The notes beneath the pieces are model-generated. The model did not search any database. It was not told where the DNA came from and was given only the letters and a program-made list of their open reading frames with translations. From positions 1,320,001 to 1,384,000 of the forward strand of contig NZ_CP017305.1 in assembly GCF_001747405.1 (NCBI RefSeq): DNA of 64,000 nucleotides, given 5' to 3'. The position numbers and the translations under genes were made by a program. Every line of letters starts with the position of its first letter. Position 1 is the stretch's first letter. Positions 946 through 37,520 of the stretch are shown here, piece by piece. The stretch is from Chlorobaculum limnaeum. GTDB taxonomy: Bacteria > Bacteroidota > Chlorobiia > Chlorobiales > Chlorobiaceae.

Positions 946-2106
946 CTACGTTCCGGTGATCTTGTCGGCGGCCAGCCGGAGAAGCTTCCGGCCCGAATTT
1001 TTCAGCAGCTCCCGGTAGGTAATGTCGCCTGACATCAAATCCATGTAACGGCGCGGTGCAGATTCCGAGCGGGCGAGCGCCGAGATGAACAGCTCCCTGG
1101 TTGCGGCTGAAAAGAGGAAGTTCCGGATTTTTGCCGCATAGGCCAGCTCGCCGGTGATGACCGCGCACCGTTTGCGGTATTCGGCGTTGACATTTTTTGT
1201 ATGACCGGAGAGCGCGTCCAGAATCGACTGCGCAGCGTAAAATCCACTCTGCATGGCGTAGGCGATCCCCTCGCCGGTGATCGGATCGACCAGCCCGGCG
1301 GCATCTCCCGCCAGCAATAAGCCGTCGCGCCCCATGCTTTTTGCATAGTCGCCAAACGGCAAGAAATGCCCTTTGACCGCGCCCGTGAACGCTTTGCCGA
1401 AGCGCTCCTGGAAAAAGGTATTGAAAATCGCCCTGAAATCACGGTTCTTCGCGAAGAGTCCTCCGAGGCCAATCACAACCACGTCATTTCTGGGAAAAAT
1501 CCAGCCGTAACCCCAGTCGATGGAATCGAAATAGATCTCCGGCTCGGCGACTTCGCGCGAAAGCGTGGACGCGGGCAAGGTCGCTTCTAGGGCGAAAGCC
1601 TTGCCGTTCCTGTTCGCGTTATGTTTGAAAATGGAATTGGCGACAACGCTGTTTACGCCGTCCGCGCCTATCAGATAGCGATACGTTATCTCTTTTCCTG
1701 ATTGTAACTTGCAGACGCAATTCCGGGCATTGACCACCGTCACCCGCTCGCCCTGCACAAGCACCGCGCCACGCTCTTTGGCCTTGTCGATGAGGCGGGC
1801 ATCGAAACGGAAACGGTCGCAGACGTACAGCTCGCCGTAGTTTTCGATGGAGTTGACGAGCCGCTCGCCGTCAAAAAATTTCGCCCCGTTGCAGCGGTAC
1901 TCGTACATTTCATCCCACCCTGGCCCAAAAATCGCGGCGTAGTTTTTTTTCGCCCGTTGCGTCAGCAACCCGCCGCACAGCTTCTGGCGCGGAAACCGGA
2001 ATCGATCAACAACGCAAACCTCGACCCCGCTCTTGGCAAGCGTATGCGCGGCAGCCGAACCCGCAGGCCCCCCGCCGACAACAACCGCCGTGTAGTGGTT
2101 TTTCAC
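946..2106 (-). CDS. Geranylgeranyl reductase family FAD-dependent oxidoreductase
   Basis: The protein has 386 residues and begins with a GTG codon (MKNHYTAVVVGGGPAG). It carries an N-terminal Rossmann FAD-binding motif (GGGPAGSAAA, about residues 10-20), a CGGLL segment near residue 45 typical of geranylgeranyl-reductase-like flavoproteins, a GADGVNSVV motif near 150 and the second FAD motif GDAAGLVDPITGEGI near 270. Family members reduce isoprenoid double bonds, for example in the phytyl/farnesyl tails of chlorophylls, quinones or archaeal lipids. In a phototrophic green sulfur bacterium a role in pigment, quinone or carotenoid tail reduction is plausible, but the sequence does not identify the substrate. 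Length matches the family. A halogenase or other FAD monooxygenase is a less likely alternative because the CGG motif fits reductases better. Confidence 0.85.
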   Translation of the reverse strand: MKNHYTAVVVGGGPAGSAAAHTLAKSGVEVCVVDRFRFPRQKLCGGLLTQRAKKNYAAIFGPGWDEMYEYRCNGAKFFDGERLVNSIENYGELYVCDRFRFDARLIDKAKERGAVLVQGERVTVVNARNCVCKLQSGKEITYRYLIGADGVNSVVANSIFKHNANRNGKAFALEATLPASTLSREVAEPEIYFDSIDWGYGWIFPRNDVVVIGLGGLFAKNRDFRAIFNTFFQERFGKAFTGAVKGHFLPFGDYAKSMGRDGLLLAGDAAGLVDPITGEGIAYAMQSGFYAAQSILDALSGHTKNVNAEYRKRCAVITGELAYAAKIRNFLFSAATRELFISALARSESAPRRYMDLMSGDITYRELLKNSGRKLLRLAADKITGT

Positions 2107-2194
2107 GCTTTATTAACTGTTAATGGTCAACAATAAGACAAGATAGGTCTTCCGGGGCGAATGGTTCGTACAGAAAATATGCGTTTCTCCGTGA

Positions 2195-2220
2195 GGGCAG
2201 CCGCGAGGGCTGCCCCTACA
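2195..2220. repeat. GC-rich palindromic intergenic repeat
   Basis: GGGCAGCC and GGCTGCCC flank a GCGAG loop, followed by CCTACA. The same GGC...GCGAG...GCC-CCTACA design recurs at 5624-5648 and, in the opposite orientation and decayed, at 7299-7326. It lies between two minus-strand genes and could act as an RNA hairpin or simply be a dispersed repeat. Confidence 0.7.
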
Positions 2221-2307
2221 GGTGCCGCTCGGTTGTTTCCAGTACTTCCGGCAAGGTGTAAATCATCACAGTTTTCGCCCCATCGTCTCCGGCAACGCGC
2301 ATAGCTT

Positions 2308-2706
2308 TCACACCCGCCCTTCATCGCTGAGTTTGTCGAGCTGGTCGCGGAATTGCTTTTGCAAATCAGCGATGGATTCGTATTCGGTGTGGTAGTGCCC
2401 GAGGTCGCCGAGCTTTTTCTGAAAGTTCCAGAGCGACAGCAAGTCTTCGCGGTGGGTTGCGCTGGTTGAGACCGAGGCTTGTTTGAACCAGGTGTAGATT
2501 AGCGGTTTGCCGGTGTCTCTGAATGTCTGGTGTGCAACGTCGAACTCCTCTTCGGTGTATTTGCCGGTTTTGGTTTTGAAGAGGCTGACGAAGAGGTCGC
2601 AATTGCGGATTGCTTCGTTGTATTCGTTCTGCATCCGGGTGCTGGACATCGCGTCGAGGAAGTTTTCCCGGCGGACAATTTCCAGATAAAGTCCCACTTT
2701 TCGCAA
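2308..2706 (-). CDS. TIR-like / DUF4062-like domain protein, 5' end disrupted
   Basis: The intact frame from a TTG at 2706 encodes 132 residues, but recognisable homology extends further upstream in the same frame to about 2788: IFLASSSELREDRDAF can be read there, followed by LYLEIVRRENFLDAMSSTR and CDLFVSLFKTKTGKYTEEEF. This N-terminal pattern (IFLASSSEL...DxFxSLF) resembles TIR-like or DUF4062-like effector domains found beside or inside STAND proteins. There is no normal start codon for the full domain: an in-frame TGA at 2800-2802 precedes it, and the ATG overlapping that stop (2801-2803) is out of frame by one base. Removing one A from the AAA run near 2785 would join them as MRYCRTIFLASSSEL. 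The gene directly follows the STAND nuclease gene and ends in a basic/acidic helical tail. Family assignment is by pattern only. Confidence 0.6.
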   Translation of the reverse strand: MRKVGLYLEIVRRENFLDAMSSTRMQNEYNEAIRNCDLFVSLFKTKTGKYTEEEFDVAHQTFRDTGKPLIYTWFKQASVSTSATHREDLLSLWNFQKKLGDLGHYHTEYESIADLQKQFRDQLDKLSDEGRV

Positions 2707-2799
2707 CCGGTCATTCTGTTGACGGAAATAAAGGTCGAAGGCGTCGCGGTCTTCGCGCAGTTCGGATGATGAGGCGAGAAAGATTTGTTCGGCAGTATC

Positions 2800-5103
2800 T
2801 CATTCCGACAAGCACCCGAACATCTCTACGATTTCGGAGTCATCGGCATCTGTCGCTTGCTTTGGTTCATCATCATACCAGTCGTCTTGAGGCTCCTCAA
2901 TGCGTGTTCGTATTTCCTCTTTGGCCTCTTCAATTCGCTCGTGAATACTTTCTAAAGATACATCAAAAGTCTGCTCAAAGTCAGTTGCTAAATTGTCAAG
3001 TTCATCCAGTTCATTCTCGTCATCAGCTTCGCTGATATGATAATCAAAGATATCGTATCCTTCTTCATTCAGTCGCGTTTTAACCGCTTGAGTTCTGTCT
3101 TCTCCAATTGCACCAGGAGCGACTTTAATGAAGTTCTTGAGATCTTCAAACTGTTGAAGATCCTCGTATTCATCGGCATCTTCGTAGAGTTTGGTGGCCA
3201 AATCAATCAAGCGCTCACAAGCATCAGCGACTTCAGGGACTGACTTCACGGCTGAAATAACTTGAGGTAAATCAGAAAGACTGGCATTGCCTGTTTCAAT
3301 TCTTTTCTCTTCATGCATTAGCACCTGAACGATGAAAGAAGGTCGTTCAAAACTTGGCAGATCATTTGACATACGTATCGCATGAACGATATTTTGCTCC
3401 AAGTTGGTGCTGATCAAATTCAAAACTCTCGCAGTTCCATCACGATTGATTTGTACAACAAGGTTTTTAGCTGTACGCTTGACTGTTCGGAGAGCGGCGG
3501 AAACAATTGCATTATCTTCCAATCCTTCGCCAATTCGAGTAGGATTCCGTTGATATAGTGTTGCATGTGGGGTGAATACTCCCCGGAATTGATCATAGAA
3601 AACAAGACTCTCACATAGCAGCAGAGCTTGATCTGAGTTAATCGAGATATGCTTCTCAAGAAAGTCACGTACCGACGGATCATGAAAAGCTACAGCAACA
3701 CTATGGGCATTGCGTTCACATCGAATGAACGATCCTTCCAGTTCATCAAGTACAGTAGTAAACTCGTTGGCAGCACGCATCGAGCTAAGTTGCTGAGCTT
3801 CCAGTCGCCTGAATGCTTCAAATGCTTCCCGTAAATCCTCCAAGTCAACTGACCCTTGGAAGGAGTATAGGACAAGTAACATGCTACGTGCTGCTGGCGA
3901 AATATGGTTGCGGTAGGCATGCCGCCAGAGAATCTCTGGATCATTCAGTGTGTTTATAAAGACATTTGGATATTCGGCTGGCGCGCAGTCTCGTATATTC
4001 TGGACTCCAGACATCCAGTCCACTATTCGAGGCGAGTAATTTCTGTGATCAACGATGGCCAATAAACTCTTCTTTTGTACTAACGCATTTTTATGTTCTG
4101 GCGTCAAATCCGAAAAGAACACATGATTCAAAAGGATATGAGCCTTGTTTCGGCGAGTGTAGGATCCGAGTTCAATGATGCACTTAGCATGATCAAAATC
4201 CGCAGCATGGAGTTTCTCGTATACAGTTCGAGCCTGCTGTAAAATGTACTCCCGAGTCGTTAAAATAAAAATTGCGTGCTCGTGAACTCGAACATAGGAA
4301 ATAAAGTCCAAAATGCTCTGCTCCTCATTCTTTTCAAGCTTATCCTCCCATCCTGTCTGACCCAAAAAATCGTCATAATAGAATACCTGTTTGGTATTGG
4401 CCTTGAGTAATTTAAAGGCCTCGGAAATATGGCTTCTTACAACAACTGGCTCGAAGCCTTGGCGAATATGTTCAAGGAGCAAAATTTCAGCTAAAAACGT
4501 CTTTCCAATACCGGCATTCCCTGAAATGATGCAATACTTATGCCTTCTTAAAATTTTAAGGGCATCAAAAAAGCTACTATTCTGAACATAGCGCTGGGCT
4601 TTCCGCTGTATTGATTCAACGAGTAACGCTGTTTGACTATAAACGTCACTGTGAACAATCCGCTCTAAAACTGTCGTGCTGGTCAGCCACAGCTTGTAAT
4701 GGTTTCGCTCAATGTCCGGGTAAAGAGTGAGCAAGTTGTTAAGATCCTCGAGTCCGAAGATGTCTTCGTCGATTTTGCAGTGTGGTTCGAATATCGCGCG
4801 AATTTCTTGTTTGTTAGCAGGTGAGAGCGGAACTGATGTTGCAATACAGTATCGATTTGGGGCAATTCGGTTAACCTTCGAATTCTCTTTTTTTAGGGTA
4901 AATAGTAGTCCTGAGTATCCCGTTTCTGCATAGTGCTTGCATTGAACTACAAGTGAATCATCAGCTGATGGCGCATAGCGCAGATCAACGCCGCCGTCTC
5001 TACCAGACTTAAAGCTTTCGAGTACTATACCAAGTTTCTTTTGCAAAAGATCACGTACAAGCAACTCAAAATCGTAGGCAGACAAAGTCTTGAAGTCGTA
5101 CAT
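2800..5103 (-). CDS. Mrr-like nuclease fused to STAND NTPase (nSTAND3-like)
   Basis: The protein has 767 residues; the start at 5103 is preceded by an AAGGAA ribosome-binding site. The N-terminus looks like an Mrr-type restriction endonuclease (Glu13, GRDGGVD at 34-40, then the catalytic QCK at 54-56). A STAND-type P-loop ATPase follows: Walker A GNAGIGKT at 195-202 and Walker B VFYYDDFLG at 240-248, the latter typical of the nSTAND3 group. A long helical region and a very acidic C-terminus (Glu/Asp-rich from about 650) follow. Known antiphage STAND proteins (Avs family) use a C-terminal sensor to trigger an N-terminal nuclease; this one is about half the size of Avs4 and lacks an obvious repeat-type sensor. 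The TIR-like gene follows with overlapping stop/start. AT-rich composition against GC-rich neighbours suggests horizontal acquisition. Defence function is inferred. Confidence 0.82.
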   Translation of the reverse strand: MYDFKTLSAYDFELLVRDLLQKKLGIVLESFKSGRDGGVDLRYAPSADDSLVVQCKHYAETGYSGLLFTLKKENSKVNRIAPNRYCIATSVPLSPANKQEIRAIFEPHCKIDEDIFGLEDLNNLLTLYPDIERNHYKLWLTSTTVLERIVHSDVYSQTALLVESIQRKAQRYVQNSSFFDALKILRRHKYCIISGNAGIGKTFLAEILLLEHIRQGFEPVVVRSHISEAFKLLKANTKQVFYYDDFLGQTGWEDKLEKNEEQSILDFISYVRVHEHAIFILTTREYILQQARTVYEKLHAADFDHAKCIIELGSYTRRNKAHILLNHVFFSDLTPEHKNALVQKKSLLAIVDHRNYSPRIVDWMSGVQNIRDCAPAEYPNVFINTLNDPEILWRHAYRNHISPAARSMLLVLYSFQGSVDLEDLREAFEAFRRLEAQQLSSMRAANEFTTVLDELEGSFIRCERNAHSVAVAFHDPSVRDFLEKHISINSDQALLLCESLVFYDQFRGVFTPHATLYQRNPTRIGEGLEDNAIVSAALRTVKRTAKNLVVQINRDGTARVLNLISTNLEQNIVHAIRMSNDLPSFERPSFIVQVLMHEEKRIETGNASLSDLPQVISAVKSVPEVADACERLIDLATKLYEDADEYEDLQQFEDLKNFIKVAPGAIGEDRTQAVKTRLNEEGYDIFDYHISEADDENELDELDNLATDFEQTFDVSLESIHERIEEAKEEIRTRIEEPQDDWYDDEPKQATDADDSEIVEMFGCLSE

Positions 5104-30117: not shown

Positions 30118-30168
30118 AATTGTTTAAGAGTTTTAATGGCCGGAGTAATAACACGGACACGTTCAGGT

Positions 30169-30474
30169 ATGGCAACCAGAAGCATCCGCATCCTGCTGCT
30201 CCTGCCGTTTTTCATGATCGGCTGGTTAGACGTTCCATCGGAACCATCCTGCCGCATATATATATCTTCGCTGGATGCTACGCCGCCAATTCCAGACGAC
30301 TACCCCGAACCGGGAAATCCTGATGACGCCCCACCGCCCGGCAACCCTGACGAGGCTCCGGCCCCCAATCCGGATGACGCTCCACAACCCGGCAATCCCG
30401 ACGACGCACCGCAGCCCGGCAACCCGGACGATGCGCCAGCCCCAAATCCCGATGACGCGCCGCAGCCGATGTAA
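30169..30474 (+). CDS. Secreted Pro/Asp-rich repeat protein
   Basis: From the ATG at 30169 the 101-residue product begins MATRSIRILLLLPFFMIGWL, a plausible signal peptide. After about residue 40 it consists of octad-like repeats (PGNPDDAP, PNPDDAPQ) repeated about seven times to the C-terminus PQPM. The mature part would be extended, acidic and proline-rich, so probably exported and possibly calcium-binding or surface-associated. It is flanked by degraded DNA, and no homologue is recognised. An in-frame ATG at 30136 is possible but weakens the signal peptide. The repeat regularity at the DNA level could also allow slippage. Confidence 0.55.
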   Translation: MATRSIRILLLLPFFMIGWLDVPSEPSCRIYISSLDATPPIPDDYPEPGNPDDAPPPGNPDEAPAPNPDDAPQPGNPDDAPQPGNPDDAPAPNPDDAPQPM

Positions 30475-34413: not shown

Positions 34414-35066
34414 GCTCCAGCCTCCAGCGCTGTTGTTTGAATTGAAATGGAAAAATCGTGAGGCGCGACCTCAGATATCATGTCGGTACATCGATCATAC
34501 CGCCGCCAAATAACAATCGTTAAAAGCAAACCACGCAGAAAACCGGCCTCCGATTGCTCAAAGAGCAGTTCAGATTCAGCAAAAATATTTCCTGCCCGGA
34601 AGTACAATCAGGAATCTGGTGGAGGCTCCCGTCAGAGTCATCCATCCAGTACATGCTTACGGAAAAAAACGCTTTTAACGATCGACCTTCATGCTCCCCT
34701 GAACAGGGTTCTCTTGCAGAAAAAACGAATCTGCGCGCTTCACAAAAACCCAACTATATAACCAAATCGTTATTTTTATAGATAAATGTATCGAAAACAA
34801 AGAATAGACACAAGGAATCAGACTCATCTCTCTAAAAAAATTCAGTACATCGTCTTCAGTAACCTATCATTTGTAATAACGAAGCATTTTATTGAGTACA
34901 TTCAAGTGAAAAGCTGACGCCATGGGTGCCTCTGCTTCACTCCGTCACCGATACAATCCTCCAGACGGATAATTGCTTTCGACGGATAGCGTGAGTCCAC
35001 AGAGAAAACGTTTCAAGCTTTTTGACTTAAAACACTCTCAATGAACTGAAAACATGGAGGGAAATC
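34414..35066. other. AT-rich intergenic region, divergent promoters
   Basis: About 650 bases between sqr (minus) and the secreted GHG/HAC protein (plus). Short overlapping frames occur on both strands near 34480-34780 but lack domains and good start contexts. It presumably contains both promoters. Only the GGAGGG ribosome-binding site at about 35057 is clear. Confidence 0.35.
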
Positions 35067-35789
35067 ATGGATCGGAAACCGCTCACGTCTGTCAGAAGCA
35101 AGCACTTGTCCAACCTGCTTCTGTTGCTAACCCTCATCATTCCCGCCCGGGAGGTGTCGGCTGTCGATCACTGGGAGGGCGGCTATGTCGGCAGCAAGAC
35201 CGAAGGAGACGCTACGACCCCGGTGTGGAACTTCATCAAGAATTTTACATGGAACCAGTATTACTGGGCAGAAACGTTCCAGTTCGACTCCTATAACAAC
35301 GAGCGGGTCGATAAGATGGACTTCGCCTATTTTGTCGGCCACGGAAGCCCATGGAACATCAAATGCCAGTCAACCTGGCTTGACCTGAGCGCGGCGGGAG
35401 CATCCGCCCACAAGGGATGGGGAAACAGCAACGCTGAATTCGTGACGCTCCATGCCTGCAACGTCGTCGCGAGTCCGCTGGAGGTTGCTGACTGGTATTC
35501 CGCATGGACCGGCAATGATGGCGTCTTCGACGGAGTTCACCAGGTCTGCGGATTCCGAACGGGAGCCTCGATGTCATGCGATCAGGATATTTCCGAATAT
35601 TTCGGCAGCCGCGTCAAGGCCGGAGCCGCTGTCTGGCAAGCATGGTTCGATGCCATTTCGCTTTATGGAGATGGCAGCGAACGCGGGGCGGCAGTCATGT
35701 ATCCGCCTTGTGATGGTGACACTTACGCGGTTTTCAGCGTCGATCCGCCCGAGGAGCACAACTGGTTGAGAATCTGGTATCAATTATAA
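35067..35789 (+). CDS. Secreted DUF6345-like protein with GHG...HAC motif
   Basis: The protein has 240 residues; the start follows a GGAGGG site. A signal peptide is present (LSNLLLLLTLIIPAREVSA). The mature region contains VDKMDFAYFVGHGSPW (His92) and EFVTLHACNVVASP (His129, Cys131). A Gly-His-Gly strand end followed by a hydrophobic strand ending in Ala-Cys is the layout of the His-Cys dyad in clan CD peptidases (caspase, gingipain, legumain), so a caspase-like fold is plausible; I recall the family as DUF6345. Catalysis is not shown. It forms a unit with the secreted protein that starts 18 bases downstream. Confidence 0.72.
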   Translation: MDRKPLTSVRSKHLSNLLLLLTLIIPAREVSAVDHWEGGYVGSKTEGDATTPVWNFIKNFTWNQYYWAETFQFDSYNNERVDKMDFAYFVGHGSPWNIKCQSTWLDLSAAGASAHKGWGNSNAEFVTLHACNVVASPLEVADWYSAWTGNDGVFDGVHQVCGFRTGASMSCDQDISEYFGSRVKAGAAVWQAWFDAISLYGDGSERGAAVMYPPCDGDTYAVFSVDPPEEHNWLRIWYQL

Positions 35790-35807
35790 TCGCAAGGGAG
35801 GTTCATC

Positions 35808-36872
35808 ATGAAAAAAGCGATCACCATGATCATGCTGGCTGGCTTGACCTCGTTTCTCATAGCAACAGGCCCCGCCGATCTCAGGAGCGAAAATCTCCGG
35901 AAACCGTTGACCGCCGTCAGCGCGCCTGCATTCAGTAACCTGCGCATCGAGCGGATGAGAACCCTGACTTATGAAGCCGTTCCGAAAAAGGCGCTCGACC
36001 AGCAAAGCGCCCGAAACCTTCTGTCAGGACTCGCCGAACGTTCCGCCGTGAAAATGTCTTTTGAAAAGGTTGAAAAACTGAATGGGCGGCTCATCTTCTC
36101 TTCACCTGAAGACCCGTCAGCCGTCTTCGACATCGATGCCAATAACGGCGCATTTCTCCTGAACACCGGTCTGAAACGGTATTCGGGAGATGAATCGAGC
36201 AAAAATCTTCCATCCGGCAAAGAGGCCCCCGAACTTGCGAAGAAATACCTGCTCGACACAGGTTTTCTGCCGAAGAAAGGTCAGGAGATGGTACTGGCTC
36301 ATGTCGGAGGCCTCAACATGGCGGTCTCGAAAGAGGGGCGGAGCGTCGGCAACTTTCGCAAGCTGGTAACCGTTCGATTCAGCCGCGTCCTGAACGGCCT
36401 GCCCGTTCAGGGGCCGGGTTCGAAAATCGTGGTACAGCTCGGCCACGACGGCGAACTTCAGGGCATGATCCACAACTGGCCGGAGGTCAGCGCAAAATCG
36501 CTCCCTGCCGCCGCCCTGAAAAGCGATGAAGAGATCAGGCGTGAAACCGGCCTGCGTTTGCGCAGAGAGGCCGGCGAGGCGCAATCGGTCGCGATCCGCT
36601 CTTCACGGCTGGTGCTCTACGATGATGGTCGGGGCGTTATCGAACCGGCGATCCATGTCATTGCCGATGCTCGTTACAAAGGTCCGGCGACAAAAGAGAG
36701 CGTGAACAATCCCGTCGATTTCTACGTTCCGCTCCTCAAGGCCCCGAAAGCCATCTACCCATTCATGAAATCCGCTGAATCGAAGATGCCCGAAGGCGAC
36801 GGCAGGCAGAAATCTGCCGAAGCCGCGTCACGTCAGCCATCACAATCACAAGATTGGTCAGACGGCAAATAA
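35808..36872 (+). CDS. Secreted protein with propeptide-like (FTP/PepSY-type) region
   Basis: The protein has 354 residues and a strong GGGAGG site. The N-terminus MKKAITMIMLAGLTSFLIATGPA is a signal peptide. From about 170 to 220 the sequence VTVRFSRVLNGLPVQGPGSK, IVVQLGHDGELQGMIHNW resembles the propeptide (FTP/PepSY) domain of secreted metalloproteases, which acts as an inhibitor or chaperone. The C-terminus is low complexity (KSAEAASRQPSQSQDWSDGK). It follows the DUF6345-like gene by 18 bases, so it may control that protein in trans. I infer this from arrangement only; no direct homologue is recognised. Confidence 0.65.
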   Translation: MKKAITMIMLAGLTSFLIATGPADLRSENLRKPLTAVSAPAFSNLRIERMRTLTYEAVPKKALDQQSARNLLSGLAERSAVKMSFEKVEKLNGRLIFSSPEDPSAVFDIDANNGAFLLNTGLKRYSGDESSKNLPSGKEAPELAKKYLLDTGFLPKKGQEMVLAHVGGLNMAVSKEGRSVGNFRKLVTVRFSRVLNGLPVQGPGSKIVVQLGHDGELQGMIHNWPEVSAKSLPAAALKSDEEIRRETGLRLRREAGEAQSVAIRSSRLVLYDDGRGVIEPAIHVIADARYKGPATKESVNNPVDFYVPLLKAPKAIYPFMKSAESKMPEGDGRQKSAEAASRQPSQSQDWSDGK

Positions 36873-36909
36873 TGTCAGCGGGGGGGATTTGTTTCATGGT
36901 TTATGAAAG

Positions 36910-36945
36910 CAGAAAACGGTGCTCCGGTCGCACCGTTTTCTGTTT
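36910..36945. terminator. Strong hairpin between convergent genes
   Basis: AGAAAACGGTGC and GCACCGTTTTCT form a perfect 12 bp stem around a 7-base loop, followed by GTTTGT. It separates the secreted two-gene unit from soxW and could stop transcription from both sides. Confidence 0.75.
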
Positions 36946-36965
36946 GTCCATGCGGCGGAATGTGC

Positions 36966-37520
36966 TCAAGGTTTTTTCGTGTTGACCGCCTTGATGACGA
37001 GCGACTCGAAGTCCTCTTTGGTGAGGCCGCCGCTGACGGCATCGAGCAGTTTGCCGTCGCGCCCGACGACGAAGGTCGCGGGAATCGCCCGGATTTTTCC
37101 GCCGGGCATGAACTTGCCGAAGGCCGCTTCGAGCTCCGGAGTAGTCAGGCCGACCGGATACTCGACCCCCATCTCCCAGAGAAAATCTGGCAGGGTCGCC
37201 GGGCGATCCCGGAAAGCGATGCCGACAAAGGTGAAGCCCTGTCTGGCATACTTTTTCTGCAACGCCACCATGCCGGGAAGCTCCTCACGGCAGGGCGGGC
37301 ACCACGAGGCGAAAAAGTTGACGATATAGGGCCTGCCCGCAAGCTGCGAGCTTTTCAGTTCCTTGCCGTCGAGCGTCCTGAGCGTGAACGCCGGAGCGGT
37401 TTTGCCCGCAACAGCGGGGCTGGCGGGAGGCGCCGCCGCAAATGCATTTGCAGCCGGAACCGCGCCGAGCATCGAAAGCGCCACGAAAGAGGTGGCGTAC
37501 AATTTTTTAATGAATTTCAT
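36966..37520 (-). CDS. soxW: Periplasmic thioredoxin, SoxW-like
   Basis: I placed the start at 37520 (MKFIKKLYATSFVALSMLGA), which yields a normal Sec signal peptide; the upstream ATG at 37547 would add nine residues. The 184-residue protein is a TlpA-like thioredoxin: APAFTLRTLDGKELKSSQLAG, FFASWCPPCREE with the CPPC active site near 85, and the cis-Pro in IRAIPATFVV. SoxW reduces SoxY or other periplasmic disulfides in thiosulfate oxidation. It is the last gene of the sox run, 200 bases after soxB, where a hairpin lies between. Confidence 0.85.
   Translation of the reverse strand: MKFIKKLYATSFVALSMLGAVPAANAFAAAPPASPAVAGKTAPAFTLRTLDGKELKSSQLAGRPYIVNFFASWCPPCREELPGMVALQKKYARQGFTFVGIAFRDRPATLPDFLWEMGVEYPVGLTTPELEAAFGKFMPGGKIRAIPATFVVGRDGKLLDAVSGGLTKEDFESLVIKAVNTKKP

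Follow-up and report, generated by a model that had tools for sequence, protein, structure and literature searches.

Two adjacent genes of Chlorobaculum limnaeum, found in the window (the whole stretch of 64,000 nucleotides that was analyzed), probably encode an exported cysteine peptidase of the clan CD type with a His92/Cys131 dyad (P1) and, as a separate gene product, its dedicated FTP/PepSY-like inhibitor or folding partner (P2). P1 belongs to the Pfam family DUF6345, for which no mention was found in a full-text literature search and no description of a function, a fold or a partner came to light. The family can now be assigned a modeled fold and a probable active site, together with an obligate partner. 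The results also suggest that the FTP/PepSY regulator fold, which is known from the propeptides of metalloproteases, acts on caspase-type enzymes as well.

The features of the pair are collected in Table 1. The stop codon of P1 and the start codon of P2 are 18 bases apart, a ribosome-binding site of the GGAGG type precedes each open reading frame, and P2 is read in the frame of P1, which is continuous across the TAA of P1. As judged by eye, the N-terminus of P1 is a Sec-type signal sequence with a basic start, an LLLLLTLII core and a VSA/V cleavage motif (...LLLLLTLIIPAREVSA/VDHW), and P2 has a Sec-type signal sequence of its own, MKKAITMIMLAGLTSFLIATGPA. Lipobox calls on P1 were dismissed because the cysteine in question is part of the hydrophobic core, with an A-x-A-like cleavage site after it. 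The two reading frames, their spacing, their secretion signals and the positions of His92 (GHG) and Cys131 (HAC) in P1 were all found where the initial annotation had placed them.

Table 1. Positions of the P1-P2 features in the window and of the Kazal-domain genes at five other loci
Feature	Position	Strand	Basis
P1 ribosome-binding site, GGAGGG	35056-35061	+	sequence read
P1, predicted exported DUF6345 protein with modeled caspase (clan CD) fold, 240 aa	35067-35789	+	PF19872, AF2, Foldseek
P1 likely Sec signal peptide, residues 1-32	35067-35162	+	by eye
P1 His92 codon, putative catalytic His (GHG)	35340-35342	+	conservation and model strand 86-90
P1 Cys131 codon, putative nucleophile (HAC; relatives usually ESC)	35457-35459	+	conservation and model strand 125-130
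P2 ribosome-binding site, GGGAGG	35796-35801	+	sequence read
P2, predicted exported FTP/PepSY-like partner, 354 aa	35808-36872	+	model fold match and linkage to P1
P2 FTP-like motif, residues about 185-224, NGLPVQGPGSK...GELQG...W	36360-36479	+	sub-threshold PF07504 matches of relatives
Kazal-domain gene, L065	7903-8241		
Kazal-domain gene, L067	7835-8173		
Kazal-domain gene, L068	8014-8334		
Kazal-domain gene, L069	5246-5581		
Kazal-domain gene, L070	8103-8447		

The membership of P1 in DUF6345 (PF19872) was established with an E-value of 1.3e-18 and a score of 67.7 bits (cut-off 26.9). No sequence match of P1 to the known clan CD families C11, C13, C14, C25, C50, C80 and C84 was found in Pfam, NCBIfam or the PDB, and sequence searches of the solved structures in the PDB gave no meaningful direct match for either P1 or P2. 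The fold of P1 was approached with an AlphaFold2 model built from 38 sequences (pLDDT 82.5, pTM 0.78). When this model was compared with the PDB using Foldseek, it matched a SAVED-CHAT filament in the activated state (E = 1e-5), legumain from plants and many caspases, and nearly all of the top matches belong to clan CD. In clan CD, neighboring core strands carry the His-Gly pair and the Cys at their C-terminal ends (PMC4357240). The P1 model has this arrangement: strand 86-90 is followed by His92-Gly93, strand 125-130 is followed by Cys131, and the two core strands are adjacent. The proposal of a clan CD-like layout, made from the sequence of P1, is thus borne out by a modeled caspase/haemoglobinase fold in which His92 and Cys131 directly follow two core strands.

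Conservation gives the same answer for both residues. His92, Gly93, Cys131, His158, Thr165 and Trp193 are invariant in all 38 sequences (P1 and 37 relatives), which excludes a chance occurrence of the GHG and HAC motifs, and by eye the His and Cys are also retained in the divergent DUF6345 copies of the Acidobacteriota, where one protein (L092) has HA instead of HG. Residue 129, which immediately precedes the A/S-C pair, varies among the relatives (H, E, D or M), and no S1 pocket or cleavage specificity is therefore proposed. The modeled fold and these residues give good support to the view that P1 would work like a clan CD peptidase, and from the two we infer a peptidase activity.

The linkage of P1 to P2 was determined by a blind scan of 84,980 species genomes in which only P1 relatives served as queries. 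The scan yielded 37 loci from Chlorobiaceae, Bacteroidota, Methylococcales and other gammaproteobacteria, Acidobacteria, and one alphaproteobacterium. A P2 homologue was found at every one of them, either directly downstream (34 loci, with gaps of about -28 to +125 bp) or as the N-terminal part of a fusion with DUF6345 (3 loci, two from Chlorobiaceae and one from the alphaproteobacterium). The propeptide-like domain is thus in cis with, or next to, the putative peptidase at all 37 loci, and the co-occurrence is reciprocal. A profile of P2 searched against 395 genomes was found in 16 (11 of 98 genomes of the class and 5 of 297 Acidobacteriota); all 16 matches are in DUF6345-positive genomes, at the DUF6345 locus, and there was none in the DUF6345-negative genomes of this set. 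P1 and P2 are co-inherited, and their linkage is strict.

A survey of the Acidobacteriota with the Pfam DUF6345 model returned nine positive genomes, one of which (G396) was already among the 37 loci, the other eight being more divergent. A P2-like gene or domain is present in eight of the nine, in three architectures: a separate gene downstream of DUF6345 (G396, L089, L090, L091 and L095), a PepSY-like domain followed by DUF6345 in one protein (L092), and DUF6345 followed by a PepSY-like domain (L094 and L096, and also L033 and L034 of the Chlorobiaceae). No P2-like gene or domain was recognized at L093. Among the genomes in which one of the two partners was detected, nearly all have both, side by side or fused. 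In profile comparisons with P2, the separate and N-terminal forms gave a probability of 99.5 (E = 5e-23) and the C-terminal form a probability of 95 (E = 3.6e-8). The control comparison of P1 with P2 was negative (probability 0.3), and a common ancestry of the two proteins was rejected on this basis. The fused versions that had been suggested as worth a search therefore exist in both domain orders; L072 is one of the natural fusions. The description of the protease and its inhibitor as separate genes holds for the commonest arrangement but not for all.

Since the PepSY-like domain is found on its own as well as at the N- or C-terminus of DUF6345 proteins, the family is a natural test case of a propeptide turning into a stand-alone inhibitor. 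We give about an even chance to the broader proposal that the DUF6345 proteins form a new family of exported peptidases with the caspase fold and that control throughout the family is by an FTP/PepSY-type domain, be it the product of a separate gene, an N-terminal propeptide or a domain at the C-terminus. One of the Acidobacteriota proteins (L091 4974-8657) is 1227 residues long and carries CUB and fibronectin-like repeats before a terminal DUF6345, so that large exported proteins of an adhesive kind also make use of the domain.

P2 itself matched nothing in Pfam, NCBIfam or the sequences of the PDB. Its relatives come close to the FTP model PF07504 (E = 0.0028 and 0.036, in L067 and L063, over the stretch that corresponds to the FTP-like motif of P2; 14.4-17.9 bits against a cut-off of 21) and to DUF4901 (E = 0.0092-0.018), in both cases below the curated cut-off, and neither P2 nor its relatives reached the Pfam cut-off of PF07504 or of a PepSY model. 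By eye, the stretch KLVTVRFSRVLNGLPVQGPGSKIVVQLGHDGELQG of P2 resembles the FTP motif. The FTP-like pattern NGxPVxGxGSK...G(E)...W is conserved in the relatives, as are G202, S205 and W224. The modeled fold of P2 matched 5coz (E = 1.6e-9), YycI (E = 1.6e-6) and the propeptide of vibriolysin MCP-02 (3nqz_A; E = 0.013, probability 0.89). The propeptide fold is therefore among the matches, although the PepSY-like folds of YycI and 5coz match much more strongly. The likeness to FTP/PepSY propeptides claimed in the initial annotation was recovered in the modeled fold but not in the Pfam searches; as a whole, the initial interpretation largely survives. PepSY domains are believed to act as inhibitors of proteases (PMC5842191), which counts in favor of P2 as a putative inhibitor and folding aid of P1. 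A lipobox is present on P2 in some relatives from the Bacteroidota and Acidobacteriota.

The arrangement of the two proteins was modeled as a joined chain, the native read-through of P1 and P2 with the TAA read as Gly, using 12 paired and 30 unpaired rows with the P2 rows trimmed; the chain carries an artificial linker that includes the signal peptide of P2. The pTM was 0.78. The pLDDT was below 50 for 124 of the 601 residues, namely the signal peptides, the linker and the C-terminal tail, and mostly about 90 in the ordered part of P2 (approximately positions 300-555 of the chain). Two domains placed randomly with respect to each other would be expected to give a pTM near 0.5, as estimated from the definition of pTM. 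The value found is close to the ordered fraction of the chain (about 0.78-0.79), and the model is therefore confident of the P1:P2 arrangement. A P1:P2 complex is predicted on the strength of this model confidence, its interface being read from the pTM.

A dedicated substrate would show a linkage just as strict, and it is conceivable, if unlikely, that P2 is the main substrate or effector of an active P1, cleavage releasing or activating an exported or lipid-anchored P2 with no inhibition. The lipobox of some relatives means that cleavage could free P2, and the C-terminal tail of P2 is disordered in the joined model. However, P2 resembles known propeptides, fusion in both orders, as found for P2 and P1, is characteristic of domains that aid folding or inhibit, and no conserved cleavage motif was identified. 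We regard as quite unlikely that P2 is instead a positive partner, such as an adaptor, a substrate receptor or a permanent subunit, and that the complex is the active form. The second-best fold match of P2, YycI, is a non-inhibitory regulator with a PepSY fold, and this match, together with the moderate strength of the propeptide match and the scores of the FTP hits below the Pfam cut-off, counts against P2 as an inhibitor; the confidence of the joined model and the retention of both domains in the fusions would also suit a positive partner. The precedent in clan CD is one of blocking domains, since in the enzymes other than caspases N- or C-terminal regions hold the active site blocked (PMC4357240). 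The sub-threshold FTP matches suggest that, within this fold, P2 belongs with the propeptides. The suggestion that P1 has a caspase fold but is a pseudoenzyme, a ligase or a structural protein, with P2 as its assembly partner, is in keeping with the absence of a sequence match to any known clan CD family but is very improbable, as pseudoenzymes usually lose catalytic residues of this kind, whereas His92, Gly93 and Cys131 are invariant across phyla and the His and Cys are kept even in the divergent Acidobacteriota copies.

For a peptidase P1 with P2 as its dedicated inhibitor and folding partner, we infer inhibition, chaperoning, a trigger and a substrate in the following terms. P1 and P2 would be made from one two-gene unit and exported separately, P2 being probably lipid-anchored in some bacteria. 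The two proteins would encounter each other beyond the inner membrane; there, P2 would bind the exported P1 and act as a propeptide in trans that aids the folding of P1 and blocks its active site. The block would be lifted once P2 is removed or degraded. In the fusions, the P2 domain would serve as an ordinary propeptide.

P1 is like the members of clan CD (caspase C14, legumain C13, clostripain C11, gingipain C25 and CHAT) in its modeled fold and in having His-Gly and then [AS]-Cys after two core strands (PMC4357240), and it is predicted to be exported like gingipain and legumain; it has no sequence match to any of these families. P2 is like the FTP/PepSY propeptides of the M4/M36 metalloproteases (thermolysin, vibriolysin MCP-02) in its modeled fold and its FTP-like motif, but it is paired with a cysteine peptidase fold, is usually encoded by a separate gene and has an additional N-terminal module. 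As far as is known, the blocking regions of clan CD belong to the chain of the peptidase itself and are not FTP/PepSY-like (PMC4357240). No paper in which a PepSY domain is joined to a caspase-like peptidase was found in a literature search. Among the known systems closest to the putative P1/P2 system are also SpeB/Spi, staphopain/staphostatin and the Bacteroides C10 protease/Bfi, which are secreted papain-fold cysteine proteases with co-encoded (co-transcribed) specific inhibitors (PMC3462683). Unlike P1, these enzymes have the papain fold, and their inhibitors are unrelated to P2. The presumed site of action of Spi and the staphostatins is the cytoplasm; P2, in contrast, carries an export signal. 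What differs from these precedents is the pairing of folds and the separate export of P2. If the proposal is correct, P1 would be the first clan CD enzyme under an inhibitor of the FTP/PepSY fold and the first to receive its propeptide in trans, as a separately exported protein.

The pair lies in a segment of 2555 bp between sqr and a TlpA-like gene (window 34414-36968). In ten relatives of the genus that do not have the pair, the distance from sqr to the TlpA-like gene is only 444-618 bp. The site is empty in these ten relatives, and the pair has therefore either been inserted here or been lost elsewhere. The placement between sqr and sox given in the initial annotation is correct as a position but is not conserved. 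A link to sulfur oxidation through sqr and TlpA/sox was rejected given the ten empty sites and the different neighbors at the other loci, and the location is incidental. The pair is sparse in the phylum (12 of 394 genomes), and it is also found on a contig of a Thermoanaerobaculales MAG (L037 5944-7690), where P1 is 77% identical to that of the window. The sparse distribution and this identity fit horizontal transfer; the contig itself could reflect a recent transfer or be misbinned. An origin from a phage or a plasmid was rejected after searches of phages, plasmids and viral contigs all returned no match to the pair.

Further genes were observed near DUF6345 loci or elsewhere in the window. 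At five loci of the Flavobacteriaceae/Saprospiraceae type, P1 and P2 are followed by a third gene, for a small, exported and often lipoprotein-like protein with a Kazal-type protease-inhibitor domain (Table 1), which adds to the theme of protease control. Just upstream of the DUF6345-PepSY-like fusion of L034 is a gene (1959-4277) for a large protein that by eye has a CHAT-peptidase-like region (FSGHGEF...LSACQSG) followed by an NTPase domain, and this is possibly a defense-type gene. In the window, the open reading frame at 30136-30474 has a hydrophobic N-terminal segment and a C-terminal repeat rich in Pro and Asp (PDDAPQPGN units), and it may be either spurious or a repeat protein.
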